A stretch of 43,619 bases of DNA from Desulfobulbaceae bacterium (GTDB lineage Bacteria > Desulfobacterota > Desulfobulbia > Desulfobulbales > Desulfobulbaceae): the NCBI GenBank assembly GCA_012744275.1, contig JAAYIE010000122.1, positions 1-43,619 on the forward strand. Direction: 5' to 3'. A model generated the notes under the pieces. That model ran no database searches and had not been told where the DNA came from. It was given only the letters and a program-made list of their open reading frames with translations. The translations under genes and the position numbers were made by a program. Below, one piece after another: positions 1 through 16,674 of the stretch. Position 1 is the first letter of the stretch; the number at the start of each line of letters is the position of its first letter.

Positions 1-923
1 AGCGTGCCAACGATGGATGCCATCAGCATCAACCGACAGGCACGGGCAATGTCTGCAACCTGCACGGTGGCAAACTCTTTGCCAATCCACGGTTTGTCAA
101 CCAGCACGCCACCGTAGTAATTCGGGCCATTGAGCTTAATGGAAAGCGCACCGGCAAAGGCGGCCTCGGCATAGCCGGCGTTGGGGCTGGAATGGTGACT
201 GCCTTCCCTGCGGGCTGTGCGCCAGGCTTGCCCTGTAAAGGCATTTGGCAGAAGCGCTGCTGCCAGGCTGATAATAATCACGCCCAGCCGCGCGGGCAGG
301 AAGTTGGCCACATCATCAATGCGGGCTGCTGTGCGGCCAAAGTACAGATACCGCTCGCTTTTGTAGCCCACCATGGAGTCCAAGGTGTTGGTCATCTTAT
401 AGGCAAGCGCCAGAGGCGCACCGCCAAGGGCAGCGAAAAAGAGCGGTGCCAGCACACCGTCCACCGAATTCTCCGCCACAGTCTCAACAGTTGCCCTGGC
501 GATATCATCACCGCCGTATTGGCTCACATCGCGCCCCACAATCATGCGCACTGCACTGCGGGCTTCATCAACCTTGTTTTGCGACAGGAGGCTGTGAATC
601 TCCATACCCGCCTGGTTGAGCGAGCGGGCGGAAAAGCAGTAGTACAAAAGCACGCTTTCCACGCTAAAACCGAGTAGTGGGTGAATGGACCAGGTCAGCA
701 AGGTAAGGGCGAGGCCTGTGCCAAATGCAGATAGAATAAGGGCAGGAGCAAAGAAAGCCCCAGCCACAAATGGTGAGGGAAAAACGCTGCGGAACCAGGG
801 CTCTGTACGGGTAATGAGATGGCCCATGAGGCGGACTGGATGCGGCCAATTGGGCGGGTCGCCGAAGAGCAGGTCGAGCAGAAAGGCGCAGGGCAGGGCA
901 GCCCAGTGCAATCCCAATTCCAT
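1..923 (-). CDS. cbiB: Adenosylcobinamide-phosphate synthase CbiB (3' end outside window)
   Basis: Integral membrane enzyme that joins adenosylcobyric acid to aminopropanol phosphate (or the free amine) late in cobalamin synthesis. The protein starts MELGLHWAALPCAFLLDLLFG and continues GDPPNWPHPVRLMG, the family's N-terminal signature. Several hydrophobic segments follow, with conserved stretches such as VAENSVDGVLAPLFFAALGG and SPNAGYAEAAFAGAL. About 307 codons are visible without a stop; the family is about 310-320 residues, so only the tail is missing. The start at 923 matches the family N-terminus. It follows cobD, and the stop of a small ORF (925-927) lies one base before its ATG, so translational coupling is possible. 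Unusually, the start codon lies inside the right arm of the inverted repeat at 914-1035. Upstream Shine-Dalgarno match is weak. Confidence 0.93.
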   Translation of the reverse strand, partial: MELGLHWAALPCAFLLDLLFGDPPNWPHPVRLMGHLITRTEPWFRSVFPSPFVAGAFFAPALILSAFGTGLALTLLTWSIHPLLGFSVESVLLYYCFSARSLNQAGMEIHSLLSQNKVDEARSAVRMIVGRDVSQYGGDDIARATVETVAENSVDGVLAPLFFAALGGAPLALAYKMTNTLDSMVGYKSERYLYFGRTAARIDDVANFLPARLGVIIISLAAALLPNAFTGQAWRTARREGSHHSSPNAGYAEAAFAGALSIKLNGPNYYGGVLVDKPWIGKEFATVQVADIARACRLMLMASIVGT

Positions 924-1035
924 ATCAAAGCCCCATCTGTGTCGGCTTCAGCAAATGCTCCTCAAAGTATCTCAATGTACGTCTGCGTCGCATTTGCTTC
1001 GCCTCCTTGATACATTTTCTTTGATCTGGAACTGG
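914..1035 (-). repeat. Hairpin element, copy A (MITE-like or structured leader)
   Basis: Outer arms on the plus strand are ccaattccatatcaaag (914-930) and ctttgatctggaactgg (1019-1035), complementary at 15 of 17 positions. Inside, on the minus strand, AGCAAATGC and GCATTTGCT form a perfect 9-bp inner stem around a core GCGACGCAGACGTAC. A diverged copy lies at 13196-13320. The right arm includes the ATG of cbiB, so in RNA the stem would hide that start. It could be a relic of a small transposable element or a regulatory leader. Confidence 0.6.
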
Positions 1036-1056
1036 AAGAAGAGCTAGACGGGTCAT
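925..1056 (-). CDS. Small Arg-rich ORF between cobD and cbiB, unrecognised
   Basis: A 43-codon ORF (ATG at 1056; an in-frame ATG at 1077 would give 50 residues) ending in TGA at 927-925, one base before the cbiB ATG. The product begins MTRLALLPVPDQRKC and has a basic run, MRRRRTLRYFEEHLL. GGAGGA lies about 12 bases before the ATG at 1056. I recognise no family. It lies mostly inside hairpin element copy A, whose second copy at 13196-13320 is frameshifted relative to it and lacks a start codon. That weakens the case for a protein, and the ORF may be incidental to a structured nucleic acid. It could still serve as a leader peptide coupled to cbiB. Confidence 0.25.
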   Translation of the reverse strand: MTRLALLPVPDQRKCIKEAKQMRRRRTLRYFEEHLLKPTQMGL

Positions 1057-1097: not shown

Positions 1098-2174
1098 TTA
1101 GCCTGCAGCAAGTTGCAACAGTACTTTGGCAAAACGAGCATTACTGGCACTGTCTTTCAAAGCTACTCGGATATAACTGCTGTCCAAACCATGAAAATTT
1201 GTGGCGTTGCGAATAAGCAAGCGTTCTGCAAGCATGGCTACCCGTACTTGCTCTGCTTCCAGGTGCGGTGGCAATTGGATGAGAATAAAGGAGGTGTCGG
1301 AAGGGATCAGGCGCAGGTTGCAGTTGTGCAGACGCTCAAAGAGCAGACCTTTTTCCGTTTGGATGTACTGGTGTGTTTCCTGCACAAACTGCTGCACCGC
1401 CTCCTGATTGGCGTATAGAAAGTGCATGGCTTCCTGGCCCAGGGTACTCAGGCTCCAGGGCTGGGCAAAGTGCTGGAAGCGGGCCAGCAGTTCAGGATGG
1501 GCGCAAAGAAAGCCGGTACGCAGGCCGGGTATGGCAAAAATTTTGGATCCAGACCAGAGTATAAGTAAGTTTTGAGCCTGCAGCGCTGCCAGGCTGCCCT
1601 GCAGTTGCGGTTTGGCAAAGGGTAGATACGAGGCGTCGACAATGCAGCGCAGATGCGGGTGGCGGCGGGCCAGTTCGTTCAGACCGTGCAGCGGGATCAA
1701 CTGGCCGCAGGGATTGTTGGGCGTGCACAGAAACAGCGTATCGTAGTGCGGCAGCTTCGGCTCCAATTCGGCCAGGTCAAGGTGGAACTGTGCTTCCGCT
1801 CGTGTGCAGAAAAAATCTGGCTCAATCCCATGCTGGCGGCAGGCATCGGCATAATCAGCATAGGTGGGTGCCACTATGAGCACCTTGCTGCTCTTGAGGG
1901 CGCTGCAGGCGCTGTAGATGAATTGGGTGGTGCCAGCACCTGCGAGGATATGCGCCGGATTGAGCCCAAGCAAGCCGGCAAGATCAACACAGGCCCGGGC
2001 CGCATCCACCTCGGGCAGCGACTGGATCCTGGGCAGGTGCACCTGCAGGTGGGCCAGCAAACCCGGCACCGGGCCGAGCGGATTGATATTGCTGCTCATG
2101 TCCGTGAGCTCTTCCGGCCGGTAGCCCAGTTCGCGGGCTAGGGCAAAGATGTTTCCGCCGTGACCGTGTATCAT
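1098..2174 (-). CDS. cobD: L-threonine-O-3-phosphate decarboxylase CobD (PLP enzyme)
   Basis: Fold-type I PLP enzyme of the histidinol-phosphate aminotransferase-like group, making (R)-1-aminopropan-2-ol phosphate, the linker attached by CbiB. The start MIHGHGGNIFALA at 2174 is the typical CobD N-terminus and gives 358 residues, a normal length; an upstream in-frame start would run into cbiP. Visible features are SSNINPLGP (28-36), the TPNNPCGQ substrate/PLP loop (151-158), D180 and the Schiff-base lysine K211 in WSGSKIFAIPGLRTG. Its ATG overlaps the cbiP stop (ATGA), so the two are coupled. A minor alternative is a HisC paralogue, but the MIHGHGGN start and cobalamin neighbours favour CobD. 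Confidence 0.9.
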   Translation of the reverse strand: MIHGHGGNIFALARELGYRPEELTDMSSNINPLGPVPGLLAHLQVHLPRIQSLPEVDAARACVDLAGLLGLNPAHILAGAGTTQFIYSACSALKSSKVLIVAPTYADYADACRQHGIEPDFFCTRAEAQFHLDLAELEPKLPHYDTLFLCTPNNPCGQLIPLHGLNELARRHPHLRCIVDASYLPFAKPQLQGSLAALQAQNLLILWSGSKIFAIPGLRTGFLCAHPELLARFQHFAQPWSLSTLGQEAMHFLYANQEAVQQFVQETHQYIQTEKGLLFERLHNCNLRLIPSDTSFILIQLPPHLEAEQVRVAMLAERLLIRNATNFHGLDSSYIRVALKDSASNARFAKVLLQLAAG

Positions 2175-12126: not shown

Positions 12127-13158
12127 TCAGGCAAAATGATTCTCTGATGTAGCCCGAAAGGCTGCCGCTGCAGTACCAGGATCATGCTGAAGAAAAAATG
12201 CGGCTGCCCGCTCATAAGCTTCGTTAAAGGTGGAGCTTGCCTGAACCTGGCTGGCCAGATGATGGCCGAAGGGATAGTTTTTTGCAAAGTGATGGGTAAA
12301 TTCCTTGAGGCGGCCCAGTTGGCGTTCCGGCGGAAAACGATCGGCGAGGGCTCTGGCAAAGTGTCGGTACACGGCTGGTAGCGAGACAGACACTTCTGGC
12401 AGCGACGCTTGGTACAAATCCCTAGCGATGGCAGCAAAAATCCAGGGAGCTCTTGCCGCCTGTCTGCCGATCATGAGACCATCTGCCCCGGTTATTGCAA
12501 GACAGGTGCGCGCGCTTGACACAGAGTCAATGGATCCGTTGGCCACCACTGGTATCTTGACCCATTCCTTCACCTTTGTAATCCAGTCCCAATGCGGTTT
12601 GCGTGCAAAGGGTTCGCTGCGCAAGCGGCCATGGACGGTGAGCAGATCGATACCCTCGCCTTCCAGCATGCGGCAGAAACTGTGCAGCTTTTCCTGGTTC
12701 AGGGTTTCTCCCAGCCGGATTTTTGCCGACAGCGGTAAACAGGTGTACCGCCGCGCCGCGGCAACAATGCGACGAACCAGTTGCGGCTCCTCCATCAGCA
12801 GCGCGCCGCCACCTGCCTTGCGCACCTGCGGCGCTGGGCAGCCCAGGTTCAGGTCTACCGCATCGGCGCCAATGACATGCAGGCGTTCCATTGCCTTGGG
12901 GATGTGCAGTTCTGTGCTGATAAGCAGCTGATAGGAAAGCGGTCGTTCTTCTTTGGTTCGGATCAGGTATGGCGACAGTTGTTCGTTCTCCGCTGGCAGT
13001 CTGCTTGCCGAGAGCATTTCAGTGCTAAGCAGGCCTACGCCCCCACACTGAAGGATGGTGGTGCGTAAGGCCGAGTGGGTGAGCCCGGCCATGGGAGCAA
13101 GCAGGAGTGGCGGTTGGATGGCAAGCGTGCCAAAGAATAAGGTCGTCCCCTGCTGCAT
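12127..13158 (-). CDS. dusB: tRNA-dihydrouridine synthase (Dus family, DusB-like)
   Basis: Flavoenzyme reducing uridine to dihydrouridine in tRNA. The 343-residue product (start 13158) opens with PPLLLAPMAGLTHSALRTTI, the family's FMN-binding start. The catalytic cysteine is C107 in VDLNLGCPAPQVRKAGGGAL; later LTVHGRL and PVVANGSIDS bind the flavin phosphate. An in-frame TTG at 13185 would add nine residues; the ATG is preferred. The C-terminal region is that of bacterial DusB-type enzymes. It is separated from tyrS by hairpin element copy B. Confidence 0.9.
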   Translation of the reverse strand: MQQGTTLFFGTLAIQPPLLLAPMAGLTHSALRTTILQCGGVGLLSTEMLSASRLPAENEQLSPYLIRTKEERPLSYQLLISTELHIPKAMERLHVIGADAVDLNLGCPAPQVRKAGGGALLMEEPQLVRRIVAAARRYTCLPLSAKIRLGETLNQEKLHSFCRMLEGEGIDLLTVHGRLRSEPFARKPHWDWITKVKEWVKIPVVANGSIDSVSSARTCLAITGADGLMIGRQAARAPWIFAAIARDLYQASLPEVSVSLPAVYRHFARALADRFPPERQLGRLKEFTHHFAKNYPFGHHLASQVQASSTFNEAYERAAAFFLQHDPGTAAAAFRATSENHFA

Positions 13159-13195
13159 GACCGCCGCTAGCTGCGCAATGAACAAAAAAAGAATT

Positions 13196-13320
13196 ATTCA
13201 GTTCCAGATTTAAAAGATGCGCCAAGGAGGGCCAGGCAAAAGCGACGCAGACGTACGTTGCAGCACTTAGAAAACATTTGCCAAAGCCGGCACAAAAAGT
13301 GCTTTGTATGGAGCTTGAAT
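13196..13320 (+). repeat. Hairpin element, copy B
   Basis: Diverged second copy of the element at 914-1035, in the opposite orientation. By hand alignment it shares CAGTTCCAGAT, AAGGAGG, an uninterrupted 17-base core GCGACGCAGACGTAC plus flank, CATTTGC, AAGCC and GCTTTG in the same order, with about five small indels. Outer arms begin ATTCA (13196) and end TGAAT (13320) and pair imperfectly. The inner stem GGCAAA/TTTGCC carries a G-C pair where copy A has A-U. It fills most of the gap between dusB and tyrS and abuts the tyrS stop codon. The reading frame open in copy A is frameshifted here. Confidence 0.55.
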
Positions 13321-14537
13321 CAGCGGGTAAAGTGAACCCGGCAGAAGCGGCGCTTGCCCACCTGAAGCAGCACAGGCTCTAACGTGGGCACATTGGCTTC
13401 AATATCGGTGATCTTTGCCCCATCAATGCTAACCGCCTGCTGTTCAATCATACGCCTGCCTTCGGAAGAGGATTTAACCAGGCCCGCCTCGTGCAGCAGT
13501 TTGGGCACCCAGATGGTGTCGCTGGCTGTGGCAAGTTCGACCTCGTCGATTTCTTCCGGTAATTCGCCTCTGGCAAAAACCTGGTCAAAGTTGCGCTGGG
13601 CAGCATCGGCATCAGCGGCGCTGTGGAAGCGTGCGACCATTTCCTTGGCCAGTTGCACCTTGGCGTCTTTGGGATGCACCTCACCTGTGTCAACTTTCTG
13701 CTTGAGATCTGCAATCTCCGCAAGGGACAGGTCGCTCAGCAGTTCGTAGTAGCGGAACATCAGCACATCACTCACCGACATGATCTTGCCAAAGATGCTG
13801 TCTGGTTCCTCGGAAATGCCAATGTAGTTGCCCAGGGATTTGCTCATTTTGTTGACCCCGTCCAGTCCTTCCAAGAGCGGGGTAGTGAGGACCACCTGTG
13901 CTTCTTGCCCCCAACTGCGTTGCAAATCCCGGCCCATGAGCAGGTTGAAGAGCTGATCTGTGCCGCCCACCTCTACGTCGGCCTTGAGCGCGACAGAGTC
14001 ATAGCCCTGAATGAGCGGGTAGAGAAATTCATGCACGGAAATGGGCCGGTTGGACTCATAACGTTTCTTGAAATCATCCCGCTCAAGCATACGCGCCACC
14101 GTCAGCTGCGAGGCCAGACGGATGATTTCGTAAGGGGTGAGCTGGCTCAGCCAGCTTGAGTTGAAGGAAACCACCGTTTTTTCCGGGTCCAGGATCTTGA
14201 AGACCTGCTCCTTGTAGGTTTCCGCATTGGCAAGCACATCCTCCCTGGTCAAGGGAGGTCTGGTCTCGGATTTCCCGGTGGGATCGCCAATGGTTGCGGT
14301 AAAGTCGCCAATGAGGAAGTTGACAGTGTGTCCCAGCCGCTGAAAATGTCGCAGTTTTTGAATGAGCACTGTGTGGCCAAGGTGCAGATCCGGTGCGGTC
14401 GGGTCAAAACCAGCTTTGATTTGCAGGGGCACATTTGTGGCAATGGAGCGTTCCAGTTTTTTGGCCAAATCTTCCCTGGTATGGAAATCAACGGTACCCC
14501 GCTCGATCAGGGCTATCTGTTCTGCTACAGTTTGCAT
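13320..14537 (-). CDS. tyrS: Tyrosyl-tRNA synthetase
   Basis: Class I synthetase charging tRNA-Tyr; 405 residues, of the TyrRS-like long bacterial type. The HIGH-like motif is HLGH (52-55) within [14 protein letters not shown], and KMSKS is intact at 230-234. [20 protein letters not shown] is the tyrosine/ATP site segment. The C-terminal S4 RNA-binding domain (about 340-405) ends [10 protein letters not shown]. The gene begins eight bases after the rny stop, so rny and tyrS are probably co-transcribed. Confidence 0.96.
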
Positions 14538-16481: not shown

Positions 16482-16674
16482 AAAAAAAGCCCCGCGCTGC
16501 CGTGTCAGCAAAATGATTAAACCTAATTACATTAGGTGGGCAGATCCAAGGTTGGGGTCTGGTAAGCCTAAGGGCTTTCCATCGTTCAACGGCAAGGCTA
16601 CCCTATCATTAAGAGTTGGCTTAATATTTAACTGATCACCAACAGAGCAGGGATGTTCTCTACTTTTGCTCTGT
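16482..16674 (-). ncRNA. ssrS: Probable 6S RNA
   Basis: Candidate RNA-polymerase-binding regulator directly downstream of zapA, the position of the 6S gene in E. coli (zapA-ssrS). On the minus strand the 5' segment CCCUGCUCUGUUGGU pairs, with small bulges, to the 3' segment ACGGCAGCGCGGGG as a long closing stem. After a large internal bubble that contains small hairpins, GGGUAGCCU pairs with AGGCUUACCAGACCC as an apical stem. Closing stem, bubble and apical stem is the 6S architecture. A promoter lies at 16680-16707 and the transcript would end in a run of seven U. Length, about 190 nt, fits. The primary sequence is divergent, so a covariance-model match is the missing evidence. Confidence 0.6.

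Follow-up and report, generated by a model that had tools for sequence, protein, structure and literature searches.

A palindromic repeat at the tyrS stop codon of a Desulfobulbaceae bacterium is probably an eroded member of an ERIC-like mobile family

The window, the whole stretch of 43,619 nucleotides that was analysed, comes from a 2.83-Mb draft genome of 159 contigs (G000) and contains two copies of a palindromic element, A and B. Copy B lies between tyrS and a dusB-like gene; copy A lies between cbiB and a gene for a CobD-type decarboxylase. The features at the two loci are given below, with model matches to R1, a covariance model built from 13 copies in the same genome.

3..923, − strand: cbiB (TIGR00380, above cut-off)
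912..1037, − strand: copy A, the better preserved element (R1 match 910-1039; arms found)
1098..2171, − strand: CobD-type threonine-phosphate decarboxylase gene, upstream of copy A (TIGR01140, 245.1 bits, below the cut-off of 290.55)
12127..13185, − strand: dusB-like gene, on the opposite side of copy B (TIGR00737, 208.3 bits, below the cut-off of 293.3)
13194..13196, no strand: left target triplet TTA of copy B (3-base duplications shown for other copies)
13197..13319, + strand: copy B, body of the palindromic element, an eroded member (R1 match 13195-13321)
13197..13216, + strand: left arm of copy B, pairs with 13299-13319 in the family structure
13242..13256, + strand: core of 15 bases common to copies A and B (exact match)
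13299..13319, + strand: right arm of copy B, pairs with 13197-13216 in the family structure
13320..13322, − strand: right target triplet TCA of copy B, complementary to TGA, the stop codon of tyrS
13320..14537, − strand: tyrS, its stop codon adjoining copy B (TIGR00234, 405 bits, above cut-off)

The tyrS gene is full length, aligning over 405 of 405 amino acids with its relatives in genomes G004 and G021. The ATG of cbiB (921-923, −) falls within the right arm of copy A. Among the 141 R1 matches of this genome, copy A ranks seventh (132.6 bits) and copy B 27th (89.0 bits). A 6S RNA at 16485-16656 on the − strand (RF00013, 53.2 bits) was the only match when the window was searched with the Rfam covariance models at the gathering threshold, and none was obtained for the element. 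When four loci of the family were searched at E ≤ 5, only tRNAs were matched.

The window has two exact matches to the core GCGACGCAGACGTAC, at 977-991 (−) and 13242-13256 (+); allowing up to three mismatches there are five matches, compared to 0.68 expected. In a blastn search of the genome the copy B region finds copy A with 76% identity (E=1.3e-13). The original prediction, made from the window alone, held that copy B is a diverged copy of A with an uninterrupted core of 17 bases; the measured run of identity is 15. It also held that both paired regions are kept in copy B. The outer arms do pair, whereas the inner stem has broken pairs. The compensatory pair it placed at the base of the inner stem, A-U in copy A and G-C in copy B, is present (columns 44/95 of alignment A1). 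The body of the element is 13197-13319, within the predicted span of 13196-13320. The observation is confirmed in part. A single A-U/G-C pair between two copies is insufficient for a claim of structure; the family-wide data described below suffice.

The element is about 126 bp long and is dispersed in more than 100 places of this genome. The R1 scan gave at least 141 matches at E ≤ 10 and at least 122 at E ≤ 0.01, both lower bounds since 150 of 1013 candidates were scored. The arm TTCCAGTTCCAGATTAAAG, at up to three mismatches, was found at 88 sites as against one for the reversed control. These counts bear out the expectation of further copies in the genome and exclude the case of two copies only, which, combined with a lack of covariation beyond chance, had been named as the result that would reduce the pair to an ancient duplication. 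With copy B as the blastn query, nine places were found at E ≤ 5e-6, including A and B, along with weaker ones. The family has terminal inverted repeats, and short forms of 53-91 bp retain both arms. The reading frame is broken in copies of the element, and the length of the hairpin loop, among the folds listed, is variable and not a multiple of three, which shifts the frame; coding is therefore unlikely. Loci L054 and L082, on contigs C159 and C146, have similar gene ends with an element exactly on the stop codon in each; their right flanks read TCA-GTTGCGTTGC and TCA-GTTGCGCTGT, perhaps reflecting a duplicated stretch.

Intact copies fold end to end into a single rod. Compared to shuffled sequences the fold of copy A has a z of −8.52, and two other copies give −7.4 and −8.9. 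Copy B folded alone is little better than its shuffles (z −1.87), and is therefore a decayed member of the family. Among the 13 copies from the window's genome, double compensatory changes were seen in 11 of 36 pairs. In 26 diverse rods, a hand-chosen alignment (A3) drawn mostly from a core-pattern scan, they were seen in 25 of 34 pairs; 91% of cells are paired as against 68% after shuffling, and doubly changed cells number 206 versus 56. The covariation score of these rods is 0.627, compared to a shuffled mean of 0.197 (sd 0.015), and none of 500 shuffles reached it. Shuffles ignore relatedness; structures slid along the alignment keep it, and these scored 0.07-0.17. Arm sequences differ between genomes yet remain complementary, with up to six pair types per arm pair.

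The inner loops of the 26 rods have 13 invariant and 18 nearly invariant columns, and mismatched blocks, CAAGGCGGCAAGG facing GACGAAGCCAACGAAGA, recur across phyla. The invariance of the innermost core is partly by construction because most of the rods were fetched by the core pattern; that pattern contained neither the arms nor the outer blocks CAAGGCGGCAAGG and GACGAAGCCAACGAAGA. From folds read by eye, the loops consist of short G.A and A.A mismatches with single standard pairs between them. A process that perfects palindromes would erase such mismatches, so selection on the fold appears to be the simplest account. Such selection presumably acts on a folded strand, be it cruciform or single-strand DNA, or RNA.

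The elements have moved: their sites differ between close relatives, and a 3-base duplication brackets the young copies. In five other genomes with young copies, identical 3-base flanks were found in 28 of 40 copies, a count that takes in all the copies fetched; the shuffled mean was 13.1 and the maximum 22 in 2000 shuffles. The duplicated triplets were TTA (18), TAA (7), TTT (2) and TTG (1), and none of the 28 duplications extends to four bases. In the window's genome 19 of 69 copies have identical 3-base flanks (shuffled mean 8.5, maximum 18), and in G004, 11 of 20 (shuffled mean 5.2). The flanks of copy B itself, TTA and TCA, differ in one base. Its site between tyrS and dusB is empty in G004 and G021, where the matches to the two genes lie 34 and 48 bases apart. 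The site of copy A between cobD and cbiB is empty in G004, G021, G005 and G022, four of the five relatives searched; in the fifth, cbiB has diverged. In those four relatives there is no rod and hardly any gap between cobD and cbiB, whereas in the window's genome the start of cbiB is inside the rod. Judged by flanking ORFs, none of 20 copies in G004 shares a site with the 69 copies of the window's genome.

Many copies adjoin the end of a gene. In the window's genome the target triplet is the exact stop codon of an ORF reading into the element in 28 of 69 copies; the triplet is the right-hand one in 24 of these and the left-hand one in 4. Such stops make up 66 of the 1485 intergenic TTA, TAA, TCA or TGA triplets of those loci (p=3.8e-20). 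This test used ORFs of at least 150 amino acids, so that unrecognised short genes may lower the control. Of the 73 matches with the highest scores it covered 69; the four omitted were one on C97 and three that lie at a contig end or close to one. In G004 a stop codon was hit in 8 of 20 copies, all on the right side, versus 17 of 300 control triplets (p=7.2e-6), the 20 being those of the 21 best matches that remained after one near a contig end was omitted. Thus in this genome and one close relative about 40% of the tested copies sit precisely where a long ORF has its stop codon. Copy B is among them, sitting on that of tyrS. The stop codon predates the insertion because the gene-side triplet is original sequence.

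In other genomes this placement is weak or absent. In mixed taxa the proportion was 6 of 40, compared to 88 of 2787 in the control (p=0.0015), and 11 further right-hand stops lay at −2 to +6 bases. This test covered 57 of 103 matches to a second model, R2, built from the 26 diverse rods; duplicates and partial and low-scoring matches were omitted. By group, the count was 3 of 12 in G329 and 3 of 9 in the window-genus group, which overlaps the G004 test; none of 8 rods in G144 and none of 8 in Eisenbacteria was on a stop codon. The orientation of genes into the right end may follow from the preference for TTA over TAA, and the exact placement on stop codons may reflect targeting or selection. 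In the open-licence literature searched, no report was found of this insertion pattern or of an ERIC-like core shared across phyla.

Rods are also found well beyond this genome. At E ≤ 0.01, R1 matched 11 of 35 relatives, or 12 of 36 genomes when the window's own is counted, with at least 96 matches in G004, and it matched in other families of the order with arms unrelated in sequence. Within the window's genus, G004 and G021 have many rods like G000, whereas none was found in, among others, G005, G022, G009 and G014. A core scan of named genomes gave 77 stretches in Geobacter, Syntrophus, Smithella, Desulfarculaceae, Desulfobulbaceae and others and, outside these, in Auribacterota, Eisenbacteria, Thermoanaerobaculia, Bdellovibrionales, Bacteroidia and Raoultibacter. 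R2 matches 76 of the 77, the Bacteroidia stretch only over the pattern-selected core. Raoultibacter was rejected as a carrier, as its pattern match arose by chance and its genome has no model match. R1 fits 44 of 46 chosen loci over the full length; many of these were fetched by model or core pattern, so only the fit beyond the core counts as independent. Single genomes had 27 R2 matches in Eisenbacteria, 33 in Auribacterota, 13 in Thermoanaerobaculia and 9 in Bdellovibrionales, and the Bacteroidia genome had four weak ones. Among 297 sampled genomes of the window's phylum, 108 had a match at E ≤ 0.001, and a hand count of the table puts 57 of them at 1e-10 or better and 23 at 1e-15 or better. 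The phylum to which the Bacteroidia genome belongs was taken as background; there 10 of 148 genomes reach 0.001, the best at 1.3e-9. The weak matches in these phylum counts were taken as scored and may include other palindromes. The conserved folded core is common to elements in several other bacterial phyla. The exact core pattern had no match in viral_contigs, where carriage by phage was looked for.

Rods vary in form. In G144, loci L245, L246 and L247 have rods of 155-187 bp that contain additional inserted GC-rich hairpins. Clusters of two or more rods, closely spaced or in tandem, are found at L180 (6584-6831, Eisenbacteria), L115 and L118. Another type, at L089-L093, L104 and L105 (in G035, G001, G028, G030 and G025), has unrelated arms, mostly TGTCTGTCCAxAAATG, with an AT-rich inner stem and a similar core.

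Among known repeats the closest in form is ERIC, also called IRU or RU-1 (MITEEc1, MITEPlu5), of Enterobacteriaceae and Vibrionaceae, which has long been used in DNA fingerprinting. Like the rods, ERIC elements are 123-127 bp long, form an end-to-end rod, and are intergenic and present in high copy. When 11 ERIC loci were compared with a motif built from ERIC-free rods, ten scored at ≤3 per 1000 shuffles and one at 35 per 1000; the 11 loci are relatives, so the test comes close to one observation. The 3′ loop block was at the corresponding place in only 6 of the 11. The full-length rod model matched one ERIC weakly, at 15.9 bits and with a shifted register, the next best match in the same 2.1 kb having 9.3. 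For 4 of 21 distinct ERIC loci an annotated stop codon is no more than 3 bases away, a count without a control in which spans and CDS coordinates were entered by hand and the plasmid gene table was incomplete. ERIC is described as duplicating TA (PMC6267812), whereas the rods duplicate three bases, mostly TTA or TAA. The same account likens the ends of ERIC to those of IS630-type elements (PMC6267812). Effects of ERIC on mRNA decay have been reported (PMC2229807), as has the loss of a stop codon through copies at the 3′ ends of genes (PMC2759123). In the sections of two articles that deal with ERIC, no transposase is demonstrated and no internal motif is known (PMC2229807, PMC6267812). Taken together, it is well supported that the rods work like ERIC. 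Identity of the two is not supported; a common origin is plausible but unproven, the similar loop blocks being suggestive.

Other repeats have been described in related groups. The Chunjie MITE of Geobacter uraniireducens is a dispersed inverted repeat of 178-235 bp, one copy of which lies in an undisturbed operon (PMC10969869). By description, on which alone the comparison was made, it resembles the rods as a dispersed inverted-repeat element and is longer. Multicopy palindromic sequences in Geobacter metallireducens and G. bemidjiensis are described as predicted short RNA elements, and a 24-copy Geobacter family with a central GRCGTAGCGCTGCTACGCC is reported also in Desulfotalea (PMC2700814, PMC2996986). 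The central GRCGTAGCGCTGCTACGCC, likewise compared by description only, recalls the central hairpin of the rods. REP and REPIN are, like the rods, high-copy extragenic palindromes; they are not known to make a target duplication. The rods are unlike them in their size of about 126 bp and their 3-base target duplications. REP sequences are given as 20-40 bp with a tag at one end (PMC3733652). The rods have several features of bacterial MITEs: they are short, non-coding and dispersed in many copies, with terminal inverted repeats and a target-site duplication.

The mobilising enzyme was not found in searches of G329 units, rod-neighbour ORFs and IS110 candidates. In G329, a genome on one contig, there was no longer unit bounded by rod arm pairs at up to two mismatches. 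No recurrent transposase was seen among the 25 ORF clusters listed near 89 rod loci; the largest, at 13 loci, looks by eye like response regulators. A longer unit in the window's genome (C58:3560-5012) was rejected since its long ORF, which we take to resemble an SbcD-type nuclease, is by eye not a transposase. In G144 an IS110-family gene is enclosed in units of about 1.7 kb that begin and end with rod arms. Two of these have different rods, and their sequences coincide only beyond a single point in the right arm, which indicates that an IS110-family element inserted into rods, using them as its target. The insertion point is seen in the right arm at L239 and L240 (C64 and C41), where AGCGCYTT is followed by CCCCAG..., and further right ends of the IS110-family element stand at contig ends at L241-L243.

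With a probability of about 0.8, we conclude that the palindromic repeat is a mobile, non-autonomous one of the ERIC/MITE type, that selection acts on its folded core, and that copy B is an old member of the family that has eroded. The strongest competitor is an ordinary MITE, an internally deleted insertion sequence whose transposase reads only the ends, with the core as a passenger and the rod a by-product of the inverted repeats. Arms, a target duplication of a few bases and scattered copies without coding function are what a MITE would show, and the 53-91 bp forms keeping both arms accord with recognition of this kind; such an element would, however, hardly have arms that are wholly different between genomes while the inner loop blocks recur, and the one-contig genome G329 has no longer unit with the same arms at up to two mismatches. 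This reading is improbable. It is very unlikely that the rods are a dispersed family of non-mobile RNA structures or cis-regulatory signals that serve the host: conserved loops and covariation as strong as this would be expected of these, but not target duplications, empty sites and the absence of any shared site between the 20 copies of G004 and the 69 of the window's genome, and there is no Rfam match.

The G144 units raise the further idea that rods derive from IS110-family elements, as their non-coding, guide-RNA end left behind without the transposase gene. The two-unit comparison, which looks like insertion into rods, and the finding of a match to the G144 IS110-family protein (E ≤ 1e-10) in just 3 of 28 rod genomes largely refute this origin, and we hold it to be very improbable. 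Ancient duplication on a local scale can practically be dismissed, and so can a small coding sequence. Copy A is readable as a 22-codon frame from its ATG, but the frame is broken in other copies and the loop length is not a multiple of three; a duplication is contradicted by the 122 genome-wide matches and by sites that are empty in relatives. The original prediction had preferred two explanations to protein coding, namely structure under selection and movement as a palindromic unit, and it is upheld by copy number and by the covariation, target duplications and empty sites that it had named as tests.

If copy B belongs to such a non-autonomous mobile repeat, a transposase acting in trans would move the rod by a cut with a 3-base stagger, mostly at TNA sites. 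A rod on a stop codon would be nearly harmless because the stop triplet is kept. Once in place it would become a rod-shaped stretch of RNA between genes, here tyrS and dusB, and may affect mRNA decay as for ERIC. A bolder extension, which we consider unlikely, is that the rods form one bacteria-wide mobile superfamily of which ERIC is the enterobacterial branch, recognised by the shape of the fold and the loop sequences and not by the ends. Its machinery would itself target stop codons, possibly via translated mRNA or the terminating ribosome, beyond the tolerated TNA sites.

An ERIC-like rod with similar loop blocks, found in several phyla and with recent activity in certain genomes, provides material for questions of the function of the loops and the nature of the mobiliser. 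The precise coincidence with stop codons, which two related genomes show over a measured background, would make it easier to understand why more than 100 insertions can be tolerated in one genome.
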